In this document: piece by piece, positions 59,776 through 63,839 of the stretch
Numbering within the stretch: the stretch's first letter is position 1
How the letters are laid out: each line of letters opens with the position of its first letter
NCBI GenBank assembly: GCA_947453225.1
Contig: CANGFV010000002.1
Span: forward strand, 1 to 64,000
Length of the DNA stretch: 64,000 nt
Source: Pseudomonadota bacterium
Lineage (GTDB): Bacteria > Pseudomonadota > Gammaproteobacteria > Steroidobacterales > Steroidobacteraceae
Direction of reading: 5' to 3'
Made by a program: the position numbers and the translations under genes
The notes under the pieces: model-generated
Database searches by the model: none
What the model saw: only the letters and a program-made list of their open reading frames with translations
What the model was told of the DNA's origin: nothing

Positions 59776-60987
59776 TTGAGTTCACCAAACGCCAATAACC
59801 GTATTCTGTCAGGCATGCGCCCCTCGGGTGAGTTGCACCTCGGCAATTATCACGGCGCTTTAAAGAATTGGGTCGAGCTGCAGTACCAGTACGAATCCTA
59901 TTTCTTCATAGCAGACATTCACGCCTTGACTACCGGCTATGAAGACACCACGCAGCTCGAATCACGTGTTTGGCAAATGGTGGTGGATTGGTTGGCAGCG
60001 GGCTTAAACCCAGCGGCATGTACCATTTTCATTCAGTCGCGTGTGCCTGAGCATTCTGAACTACAAGTGCTGTTATCAATGATCACTCCGCTTAGTTGGT
60101 TGGAGCGTGTGCCGACTTATAAAGATCAACAAGAACAATTGAAGGATAGAGATTTAGCTACCTATGGATTTCTAGGCTATCCGCTGCTGCAAAGCGCCGA
60201 TATTTTGCTCTACAAGCCGGAGTTTGTGCCGGTGGGTGAAGATCAGGTGGCGCACATTGAAATCACGCGTGAAGTGGCGCGCCGTTTTAACTTTGTGTTT
60301 GGCCGTGAAAATGATTTTGAATCGAAAGTTGAAAAAGCACTGAAGAATTTGGGCAATCGTGCCAAGTCCTATTTAGAGCTACGCAAGCAATACCAAGAGC
60401 AGGGTAATGCTGAAGCGCTGACTAAGGCGCAGGCACTATTAGAAGACAACACGCGTTTGACGCTGGCTGACCAAGAGCGATTACTGGGTTATTTAGAAGG
60501 CACAGGTCGTAGCATTCTGATTGAGCCGCAAGCCTTATTGACTGCGACGCCTAAAGTACCTGGATTGGATGGTCGTAAAATGTCGAAGTCTTACGGCAAC
60601 ACCATTGGCTTGCGAGAAGACCCAGACAGCGTGGCTAAAAAACTACGCACCATGCAGACTGATCCAGCGCGCGTGCGTAAGACTGATCCTGGTAATCCTG
60701 AGGCATGTCCAGTGTGGGATTTACACAAAGTGTATTCCGACAACGACACCCTGCAGTGGGCTCAGCAAGGCTGTCGTTCAGCGGGCATCGGTTGCATTGA
60801 ATGTAAGAAACCACTAATTGATAAGGTGGTGGCTGAAATCAGTACGATTCGTAAAGCTGCTCAAGAATATGAAGAAAATGCCGATCTAGTGCGCGGTATC
60901 ATCGCCGAAGGCTGTGAGAAGGCAAGAGAAGTGGCGCGACAAACCCTAGATGAAGTGCGTCAAGCCATTGGCATGAATTATCGATGA
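59776..60987 (+). CDS. trpS: Tryptophanyl-tRNA synthetase with a C-x21-C-x6-C-x2-C motif
   Basis: 403 residues from a TTG start, with AAAGG seven bases upstream. Class Ic synthetase: HIGH-like GELHLGNYHG (19-27) and KMSKS (268-272) are intact. Compared with the 334-residue E. coli enzyme, there is an insertion of about 75 residues (181-257) before KMSKS. A C-terminal cysteine set C311, C333, C340 and C343 nearly repeats the C-x22-C-x6-C-x2-C motif that binds a [4Fe-4S] cluster in Thermotoga maritima TrpRS. It is coupled to scpA by a four-base overlap. Confidence 0.95.
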   Translation: MSSPNANNRILSGMRPSGELHLGNYHGALKNWVELQYQYESYFFIADIHALTTGYEDTTQLESRVWQMVVDWLAAGLNPAACTIFIQSRVPEHSELQVLLSMITPLSWLERVPTYKDQQEQLKDRDLATYGFLGYPLLQSADILLYKPEFVPVGEDQVAHIEITREVARRFNFVFGRENDFESKVEKALKNLGNRAKSYLELRKQYQEQGNAEALTKAQALLEDNTRLTLADQERLLGYLEGTGRSILIEPQALLTATPKVPGLDGRKMSKSYGNTIGLREDPDSVAKKLRTMQTDPARVRKTDPGNPEACPVWDLHKVYSDNDTLQWAQQGCRSAGIGCIECKKPLIDKVVAEISTIRKAAQEYEENADLVRGIIAEGCEKAREVARQTLDEVRQAIGMNYR

Positions 60988-62045
60988 ATAACGAGTTAAC
61001 ACCTGTGGTTGAAGCCTTGAATTCCCCTGAAGCTGATCTGACTGCCGAACAAGCAGTTGATGCTGCAACTGTTCAGCCTCAGCAGGAAGAGATGCCGTTT
61101 GCCATCGTTGATGGTGAGCCGTACACCGAAGTACCGCGTGATTTATACATTCCGCCTGATGCATTGCAGGTGTTTTTAGAGGCCTTTGAGGGGCCGCTAG
61201 ATTTGCTGCTGTATCTCATTCGTAAGCAAAACCTCGATATTTTAGATATTCCCATTGCTGAAATTACTCGGCAATACATGGGTTATATCGATCTGATGGA
61301 AAATCTGCAGCTTGAGCTGGCCGGTGAATATTTGTTGATGGCAGCCATGCTGGCTGAAATTAAGTCGCGTATGTTGTTGCCGCGTGTCAAGACCGAGGAT
61401 GGCAGCGAAGAAGAAGATCCGCGTGCTGAGTTGGTGCGTCGCTTGCAAGAGTATGAGCGCTTTAAGAAGGCAGCGGATGATATTGATCAACTTAAGCGAC
61501 TTGAGCGCGATGTGATGGTTGCTAGTGTTGAAGTGCTTGAACGACGCGTAGTGCGACAACTGCCGGAAACCAGTCTCAGTGAAATGCTTAAGGCATTTCG
61601 CGAGGTGGTGCAGCGCTCTGAACATTTTAGTCATCATGCGGTGCAGCGCGAACGCTTATCACAGCGTCAGCGCATGACGGAAATTCTTGATGTGCTTGAG
61701 CGCAATGAATTTGTCGAGTTTATTCATCTGTTCAAAGCTGAAGAAGGCCGTATGGGCGTGACCGTGACCTTCATCTCTATTTTAGAACTGATGAAAGAAG
61801 GTTTGATTGATATTGTGCAGAACGAGCCTTATGCGCCTTTACATGTACGTAAGGCGACTGCACGACGCGCTGATGTGGATTTAAGTAATGATGCGTCTGA
61901 TCTGGAAAACGAGGCGGCGTTGGCGCAGCCAGAATTACCTGATGAGCATGATATCGAGCCTGCTCCAGAGTTAAGTGATTTGCCGTCTGATCAATCTCAA
62001 ACAGAAGAAACGGTGGCTTCCGCTGATGATGTGTCGGCCAATTAA
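60984..62045 (+). CDS. scpA: Segregation and condensation protein A (kleisin)
   Basis: 353 residues. ScpA bridges the SMC heads and recruits ScpB. After a variable N-terminal 60 residues come VFLEAFEGPLDLLLYLI, DILDIPIAEITRQYM and LAGEYLLMAAMLAEIKSRMLLPR, the kleisin N-domain. A middle region and a winged-helix-like segment (about 230-290) precede a disordered acidic tail. The start overlaps the trpS stop (ATGA). Confidence 0.94.
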   Translation: MNNELTPVVEALNSPEADLTAEQAVDAATVQPQQEEMPFAIVDGEPYTEVPRDLYIPPDALQVFLEAFEGPLDLLLYLIRKQNLDILDIPIAEITRQYMGYIDLMENLQLELAGEYLLMAAMLAEIKSRMLLPRVKTEDGSEEEDPRAELVRRLQEYERFKKAADDIDQLKRLERDVMVASVEVLERRVVRQLPETSLSEMLKAFREVVQRSEHFSHHAVQRERLSQRQRMTEILDVLERNEFVEFIHLFKAEEGRMGVTVTFISILELMKEGLIDIVQNEPYAPLHVRKATARRADVDLSNDASDLENEAALAQPELPDEHDIEPAPELSDLPSDQSQTEETVASADDVSAN

Positions 62046-62075: not shown

Positions 62076-62774
62076 ATGAACGAATTAGAAATGAAATATC
62101 AATTTGAAGCAGCATTGCTGGCTGCAGGACGTCCTTTAACGACGCAGTATCTGGCTGAGTTATTCGATGAGCGCGAGCGGCCTAGTCTTGAGCAGGTACT
62201 AAATGCACTGCATGCGTTACAGCAAGACTATCAAGAGCGTGGCATTGAATTGGTTGAAGTGTCGAGTGGCTGGCGTATTCAAATTCGTAACCACTGTATC
62301 GATTTTGTGTCGCGCCTTTGGCAAGAGCGTCCATCACGATATTCACGTGCCTTGCTTGAGACGCTGGCGCTCATTGCTTATCGCCAGCCAATTACTCGCG
62401 GTGAAATTGAAGAGATTCGTGGTGTGGCCGTCAGCAGTACCATTATGCGTACACTGCATGATCGTAATTGGATACGTGTGGTGGGTCATCGTGAAGTGCC
62501 CGGTCGGCCTGAGTTGTTGGCCACCACTAAAGATTTCCTCGATTATTTTGGTCTGAAAAGCTTGGATGAACTGCCAACGTTGGCTGAATTAAAAGATGTA
62601 GAAACCATTGGTGTACAGCTTGAATTTAGTACCGGTGAAGTGTCGCCTGAATTGCAGGCTGAAGCCGGTGAGTCTACTGAAGCTGCTGATGTTGAATCTT
62701 CAGATGCAGTTGTCGCTGATGCGGCGGCAGAGAATGCAAGCGAAGCGGATGCTGAAACAGTTGCGGTGCACTAA
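62076..62774 (+). CDS. scpB: Segregation and condensation protein B
   Basis: 232 residues with two winged-helix domains. The motif ETLALIAYRQPITRGEIEEIRGVAVSS and the following GHREVPGRPELLATTKDFLDYFGLKSL are family hallmarks. ScpB dimers bind ScpA in the SMC complex. The C-terminal 40 residues are Ala/Glu-rich and low in complexity. rluB follows after three bases. Confidence 0.94.
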   Translation: MNELEMKYQFEAALLAAGRPLTTQYLAELFDERERPSLEQVLNALHALQQDYQERGIELVEVSSGWRIQIRNHCIDFVSRLWQERPSRYSRALLETLALIAYRQPITRGEIEEIRGVAVSSTIMRTLHDRNWIRVVGHREVPGRPELLATTKDFLDYFGLKSLDELPTLAELKDVETIGVQLEFSTGEVSPELQAEAGESTEAADVESSDAVVADAAAENASEADAETVAVH

Positions 62775-62777
62775 GGC

Positions 62778-63839
62778 ATGTCAGAACGGTTGCACAAGGT
62801 TCTGGCCCAACACGGTATTGGTTCTCGTCGTGAAGTAGAGCGCTGGATTAGCGAAGGGCGCATTCAAATCAATGGGATCATCGCTAAGACCGGTGATCGT
62901 TACGAAGTTGGTGATCGTGTTCAGTTGGATGGCAGAGAAGTAGGTAAGCGACTTGAGCGAGTCACCAATGCTCAAGTGATTGTTTATCACAAACCACAAG
63001 GCCAACCGATTGAACGCCGTTCTCCAGAGCGTCAGTCTGAAGAACATGCGCCAGAAGTTGTTGAGGAGTCCGTTGAGGAGCGTCTTCCCGTGCAACGAGG
63101 ATCGCGTTGGGTGGCGATTAATCCCATGCATCCTGGTGATAGTGGCCTGTTGTTATTTACTAACGATGGTCGCTTGGCTTATGCGCTCACGCGGCAAAAG
63201 AAGAAAATTGCTACCACTTATATGGTGCGAGTACATGTACGCGGTGGCGCTGCTGCCGCACCTGTGCTGCCTACATCATTACGACTAGATAATCAGACTA
63301 TCGATTTCACTGAAGTGACCGTGAGTAGTAATGCTCTTGAGGGCGAGAGTGAATCGGGTAATGTGTGGTACAAGGTAGTGATGCCCCGTGCCGATAAACG
63401 CGCGGCAGTACGTGCATTATTTGTCAGTCATGGGTTAACGGTCAGTCGCATGATGCAAGTCGCTTTTGGTGAAGTGATGCTGACCAAAGAAATGCCACGC
63501 GCTCGTTCAGTGGCTCTTAAGCCGTCACAGATTGAGTCTTTATACACATTGGCGCAATTGACGGCCCCAGTGCCTGCTGGGCGCGAGACGGCACCACTAA
63601 AACGGAGTCGTGCTCAGGGCGCGAAAGGGAGTCCGGAGGATCAGTTGGACGCACCTACGCTGACCATGCAAGAACTGAACAATGCCGCGCGTGCGCGTCG
63701 TTCGGTAGCTTCACCTTCGGCTCAATCTGTTCAGTCGACTGGTAGGTATCAGCCTCAGCAACGAGCGGCATTACGTCGGCCAAAAACCGGCGGCTCGAAT
63801 CGTCCCTCGCGTCCTGTGGCGGGTCGACCTAAGAAATAA
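62778..63839 (+). CDS. rluB: RluB-like pseudouridine synthase with a substituted catalytic residue
   Basis: 353 residues. An N-terminal S4 domain (1-60) with SERLHKVLAQHGIGSRREVERWI is followed by an RsuA/RluB-type domain. Members have GRLDxxTSGLLLFTNDG, whose Asp is catalytic. Here the line reads NPMHPGDSGLLLFTNDG, so H118 takes the Asp position. The downstream GRNREVRRLF-type motif is also degraded (ADKRAAVRALF). The C-terminal 90 residues are a basic, Arg/Pro-rich tail. Either activity is lost or the chemistry differs. It follows scpB, the usual scpAB-rluB order. Confidence 0.85.
   Translation: MSERLHKVLAQHGIGSRREVERWISEGRIQINGIIAKTGDRYEVGDRVQLDGREVGKRLERVTNAQVIVYHKPQGQPIERRSPERQSEEHAPEVVEESVEERLPVQRGSRWVAINPMHPGDSGLLLFTNDGRLAYALTRQKKKIATTYMVRVHVRGGAAAAPVLPTSLRLDNQTIDFTEVTVSSNALEGESESGNVWYKVVMPRADKRAAVRALFVSHGLTVSRMMQVAFGEVMLTKEMPRARSVALKPSQIESLYTLAQLTAPVPAGRETAPLKRSRAQGAKGSPEDQLDAPTLTMQELNNAARARRSVASPSAQSVQSTGRYQPQQRAALRRPKTGGSNRPSRPVAGRPKK

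Follow-up and report, generated by a model that had tools for sequence, protein, structure and literature searches.

The gene directly downstream of scpB in the window, by which we mean the whole stretch of 64,000 nucleotides that was analyzed, is likely to encode an RluB orthologue that became a pseudoenzyme a single time, in the common ancestor of the family Steroidobacteraceae, and that has been kept as a non-catalytic RNA-binding factor, most probably for large-subunit (50S) assembly. In that ancestor, the catalytic aspartate, the base-flipping arginine, most of the loop that binds the A2602 bulge and motif III would have been lost. The protein would no longer make pseudouridine and would still bind structured RNA through its S4 domain and a basic cleft. 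Pseudouridine 2605 would then either be absent or be made by another enzyme of the RsuA family.

Coordinates of the putative RluB-type pseudoenzyme gene, its neighbors and its informative residues within the window
Feature	Position	Strand	Basis or remark
Putative RluB-type pseudoenzyme gene, 353 aa	62778..63839	+	ORF; RluB entries are the best PDB matches; third gene of the scpA-scpB-rluB cluster
scpB, upstream neighbor	62076..62774	+	
scpA, upstream neighbor	60984..62045	+	
S4 RNA-binding domain, residues 3-48	62784..62921	+	PF01479; many invariant positions in common with canonical RluB
Arg17, equivalent of RluB Arg17	62826..62828	+	49/49 degenerate and 38/38 canonical proteins
Motif II, eroded: NPMHPGDSGLLLFT where GRLDxxTSGLLLFT is expected	63120..63161	+	
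Pro116 at the position of base-flipping Arg108	63123..63125	+	Alignment
His118 (CAT, codon 118) at the position of catalytic Asp110	63129..63131	+	Codon read and alignment
Asp121 at the position of Thr113	63138..63140	+	Asp in 47/49 and Glu in 2/49 degenerate proteins; Thr/Ser in 38/38 canonical proteins
Equivalent of the A2602 bulge-binding loop (RluB 131-138); His131, Pro132, Ser133 and Arg138 replaced	63192..63215	+	
Tyr148, equivalent of active-site Tyr140, kept	63219..63221	+	Tyr/Phe in 48/49 homologues
Motif III, eroded: PRADKRAAVRALF where EGRNREVRRLW is expected	63384..63422	+	
C-terminal basic tail, residues 263-353	63564..63836	+	pI 11.9; 18 K/R vs 5 D/E

RluB is the synthase for pseudouridine 2605 of 23S rRNA, a position close to the catalytic center of the ribosome. 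In enzymes of the RsuA/RluB type, the aspartate of the motif GRLDxxTSGLLLFT is the nucleophile. The initial annotation had read a histidine in its place, and had described the downstream Arg/Asn-rich motif as eroded, the S4 domain and the fold as remaining and the place after scpB as kept. All four statements hold, that on the fold by prediction. Codon 118 was read directly as CAT, and phmmer alignments against E. coli RluB (9cl9 and 4lab; E ~1e-35) place His118 opposite Asp110, Pro116 opposite Arg108, Asp121 opposite Thr113 and Tyr148 opposite Tyr140; the RluB numbering was cross-checked against the residues named in PMC3919597. In the same alignments, motif III carries one inserted residue relative to RluB. 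The reading frame is intact and opens with ATG three bases past the scpB stop. Asp121 had been considered as a possible occupant of the catalytic site, but it falls on Thr113 in every alignment made and is ruled out as the aligned catalytic aspartate. For E. coli RluB it was demonstrated that Asp110 is catalytic, that Arg108 occupies the site vacated by the flipped base (with R108A, 0.6% activity remains), that Y140F retains ~3% activity, that residues 131-138 hold the A2602 bulge and that Arg17 anchors the rRNA stem-loop (PMC3919597).

Profile searches give a similar picture. The S4 domain scores well above the gathering threshold of PF01479 (46.8 vs 22.8 bits), while PF00849 (PseudoU_synth_2) is matched at 29.5 bits against a threshold of 26.8, with only profile positions 1-84 of 152 covered. 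Among three degenerate relatives that were scanned, L061 and L067 gave no match to PF00849 and L013 stayed below the cut-off. The RluB equivalog NF007976 is still the best NCBIfam match of the window protein; however, the score of 135.9 bits lies far below the cut-off of 290, and the protein departs from RluB in the aspartate of GRLD, in Arg108 and in the bulge-binding loop as well. By descent it belongs with RluB, away from RluE, RluF and RsuA, and judged by position and tree the window gene is an RluB orthologue. With its essential catalytic residues gone and the protein conserved under selection, it qualifies as a pseudoenzyme, the inactivity itself being predicted from sequence.

The loss is not confined to the window. 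None of the 49 scpB-linked homologues read in the Steroidobacteraceae (23 of 25 genera), here called degenerate proteins, has the catalytic aspartate, while it is present in 38 of 38 canonical RluBs of the aligned comparison set. At the Asp110 position the degenerate loci carry P (19), Q (13), A (10), H (4), N (2) or G (1), and at the Arg108 position P (33), T (11), A (4) or S (1). Of the sister families in the order, 15 were sampled (f2-f16), and the 42 homologues read from them all kept GRLD; most of these homologues were seen directly after scpB. An RluB-type match to the degenerate profile was obtained in 210 of the 217 family genomes, and seven gave none; since this profile also matches canonical RluB, the residue counts come from loci actually read. 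Outside the family, the score of profile A2 likewise does not separate degenerate from canonical proteins, and residues were read from fetched loci. The genus of the window is almost certainly a genus of the Steroidobacteraceae other than Steroidobacter (g4). A sequencing error or a private mutation is ruled out, as His118 occurs in all four genomes of the window's genus, which represent four species, and the loss is family-wide.

In a maximum likelihood tree (quick search), the 49 degenerate proteins form one clade with an SH-aLRT of 98, and RluB plus the degenerate clade are supported at 96, apart from RluE, RluF and RsuA. Because the degenerate proteins form one clade, a single ancestral loss fits the data. 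Both this fit and the family-wide extent are beyond the reach of a single-gene reading.

The degenerate proteins are under purifying selection. In pairs within the genus Steroidobacter the degenerate core gave dN/dS values of 0.006-0.10, at dS up to 0.84, which is similar to or lower than the 0.06-0.16 of scpB in the same closest pairs. Motif II shows a dN of 0 among three species of the window's genus, at a dS near saturation. Retention under strong selection suggests that the protein still serves a function, as an RNA binder rather than an enzyme. Sequence thus supports the pseudoenzyme reading offered by the initial annotation: across the family the aspartate, the arginine and motif III have gone, whereas the S4 core and the predicted fold persist under purifying selection.

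The AlphaFold model of the window protein (mean pLDDT 86.9) has the RluB-RNA complex 4lgt as its best PDB match, with a TM-score of 0.70-0.76, and the overall RluB fold is thus predicted to be retained. The model of a canonical relative is of lower confidence near motif II, with pLDDT <50 at residues 109-111. The two domains evolved differently: mean identity within the S4 domain is 0.56 among degenerate vs 0.53 among canonical proteins, while within the catalytic domain it is 0.40 vs 0.56. Given this fast divergence of the catalytic domain and the loss of bulge-binding residues, helix 93 may have ceased to be the RNA target. One might go further and envision a non-catalytic factor that acts outside ribosome assembly on a new partner, be it RNA or protein, e.g., an S4-type regulator or a stress factor. 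The low catalytic-domain identity together with the new conserved residues fits such a scenario, as does the loss of the residues that recognize helix 93. However, the predicted fold is closest to RluB-RNA complexes, the locus is unchanged and no positive evidence for another partner was found; we consider this scenario unlikely, if worth keeping in mind.

In all 49 degenerate proteins two new residues are fixed: the Thr113 site carries Asp/Glu and the His131 site Arg/Lys. The acid gained at +3, which is invariant, could have a chemical function. It is in our view quite unlikely that the clade was rebuilt around a new active or binding site in which both residues act together on an RNA, so that the synthase fold gained an activity or specificity instead of only losing one. 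A related proposal holds that Asp121 took over catalysis, leaving a working synthase whose geometry is altered or whose target is new. The +3 site is indeed Asp/Glu in every degenerate protein vs Thr/Ser in every canonical one, and the equivalents of Tyr140 (as Tyr/Phe) and of Arg197 (as Arg) are each kept in 48 of 49 degenerate proteins. Nevertheless, Arg108, whose replacement alone nearly abolishes activity in E. coli (PMC3919597), is gone too, and both motif III and the loop for the A2602 bulge have eroded. In the model, Asp121 lies three residues from the catalytic position, at the foot of strand 122-128, where it could plausibly serve as a turn or strand cap. We therefore judge a shifted nucleophile to be very unlikely. 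The Tyr140 equivalent is Phe in 16 of the 49 homologues (e.g., L047 and L055), and, given this change in a third of the homologues, the active site seems to keep eroding in some genera.

If the scpB-linked protein is a non-catalytic assembly factor, pseudouridine 2605 might, as the initial annotation also proposed, be made by another enzyme. The genome of the window contains eight PF00849 matches, among them the scpB-linked gene itself, RluF-, RsuA- and RluE-like enzymes (L072, L073, L074) and three unclassified ones. The initial annotation had proposed to look for a second rluB or rsuA, and a further RsuA-family enzyme was found (L075, on G000:C15), whose motif GRLDADSTGLLLLT is intact and which is the candidate in this genome. 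Across the 217 family genomes, enzymes of the L075 type (called at E <1e-70) occur only in four genera (g1, the window's, g4, g9 and g24). A canonical RluB unlinked to scpB (called by profile A3, with complete copies scoring >350 bits) is confined to ten others (g2, g5, g8, g10, g11, g13, g15, g18, g21 and g22) and was not found in the window's genus. No genome contains both, and 11 genera are without either. Some of these carry another intact RsuA-family type, NKPRGL...GRLDKASEGLLLFSND (L167, L173 and L174, of genera g7, g23 and g20), and in others only RluF-, RsuA- or RluE-like enzymes were seen.

Among 117 genomes sampled across the order, the L075 type turned up in none from outside the family, which suggests a gain by transfer. 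The canonical unlinked RluBs form one clade (98) near family f9 (89), and either a gain or an old duplication would fit the tree. In three genera they lie 0.2-1.3 kb upstream of tRNA-Tyr, tRNA-Gly and tRNA-Thr (L126:7244-8607, L127:205-1491, L128:4283-6638), and in many drafts a contig end is close by, suggesting repeated sequence beside them. In the vicinity of L075-type synthases we observed a group I intron (RF00028, 56.8 bits; L130:9341-9593, ~2 kb away in G011) and a c-di-GMP-I riboswitch (L129:1454-1539, ~5 kb away in a Steroidobacter genome). The target site itself, U2604/U2605, is unchanged in the 23S rRNA of seven family genomes, two of them from the window's genus, while the target-site pattern found no match in the window's own genome. 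The mutually exclusive substitutes fit a replacement of the lost activity without proving it, and the kinship of the genera reduces the independent replacement events to a few.

A decaying gene, relaxed once its work had passed to a second RluB or to an RluB-like enzyme, and now being lost, would agree with the catalytically complete copies elsewhere in 14 genera, with a catalytic domain that evolves faster than in canonical RluB and with the seven genomes lacking a match, but it is hardly credible, since the frame is open in all 23 genera read, the gene is kept in the 11 genera with neither substitute, the new residues are fixed family-wide and dN/dS far below 1 largely rules out a pseudogene.

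It has long been asked whether cells retain rRNA-modifying enzymes because of the modification or because the protein itself helps ribosome assembly, and the answers so far have come from catalytic mutants in E. coli. Here, evolution apparently ran the experiment: the catalytic site of RluB was removed once and the protein was kept in the 23 genera read, both in those with a separate intact enzyme and in those without. As the cultured type strain Steroidobacter denitrificans carries a degenerate RluB, the claim is open to testing. Furthermore, an RluB annotation based on position or fold is no evidence for pseudouridine 2605.

Work on other organisms bears on a non-catalytic role in assembly. 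In E. coli, catalytically dead RlmB still aids 50S assembly, while in a strain devoid of 10 modification enzymes the re-expression of RluB improved neither growth nor subunit assembly (PMC11194073). Going by its title, 'WT 12C IM fraction, B-b3 with RluB bound', PDB entry 9cl9 shows RluB on a particle from low-temperature cells. The human proteins RPUSD3 and TRUB2 are, like the window protein would be, inactive synthase homologues tied to large-subunit biogenesis. RPUSD3, in which glycine replaces the catalytic aspartate, shows no activity (PMC12716993), and the mitochondrial large subunit is depleted when RPUSD3 is silenced (PMC6414753); TRUB2, without detected activity, is needed for the same subunit (PMC12716993, PMC6414753). 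However, they belong to other synthase families (RluA and TruB, respectively) of vertebrate mitochondria and represent separate losses. A search of the open-licence literature found no description of a bacterial pseudouridine synthase pseudoenzyme or of a family-wide RluB pseudoenzyme.

Compared to E. coli RluB (4lab, 4lgt, 9cl9), the window protein shares the S4 and RsuA-type catalytic domains, the predicted fold, Arg17 and the active-site tyrosine, and with the canonical RluBs of sister families it shares the place after scpA-scpB. In contrast, it lacks Asp110, Arg108, His131/Pro132/Ser133/Arg138 and the motif III residues of the E. coli enzyme, and carries new residues at 113 (Asp/Glu) and 131 (Arg/Lys). 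The unlinked canonical RluBs of the Steroidobacteraceae (e.g., L054 and L126) belong to the same enzyme family, as a paralogue or later gain, but have full GRLD and GRNREVRR motifs and a short tail. The L075-type enzyme combines S4 and catalytic domains as well and resides in the window's own genome, yet its catalytic motif is intact and it forms a separate clade. Taken together, the RluB fold and its family were known before, as were vertebrate pseudouridine synthases lacking the aspartate, while the apparently new part is an ancient, family-wide and putatively inactive RluB in bacteria.
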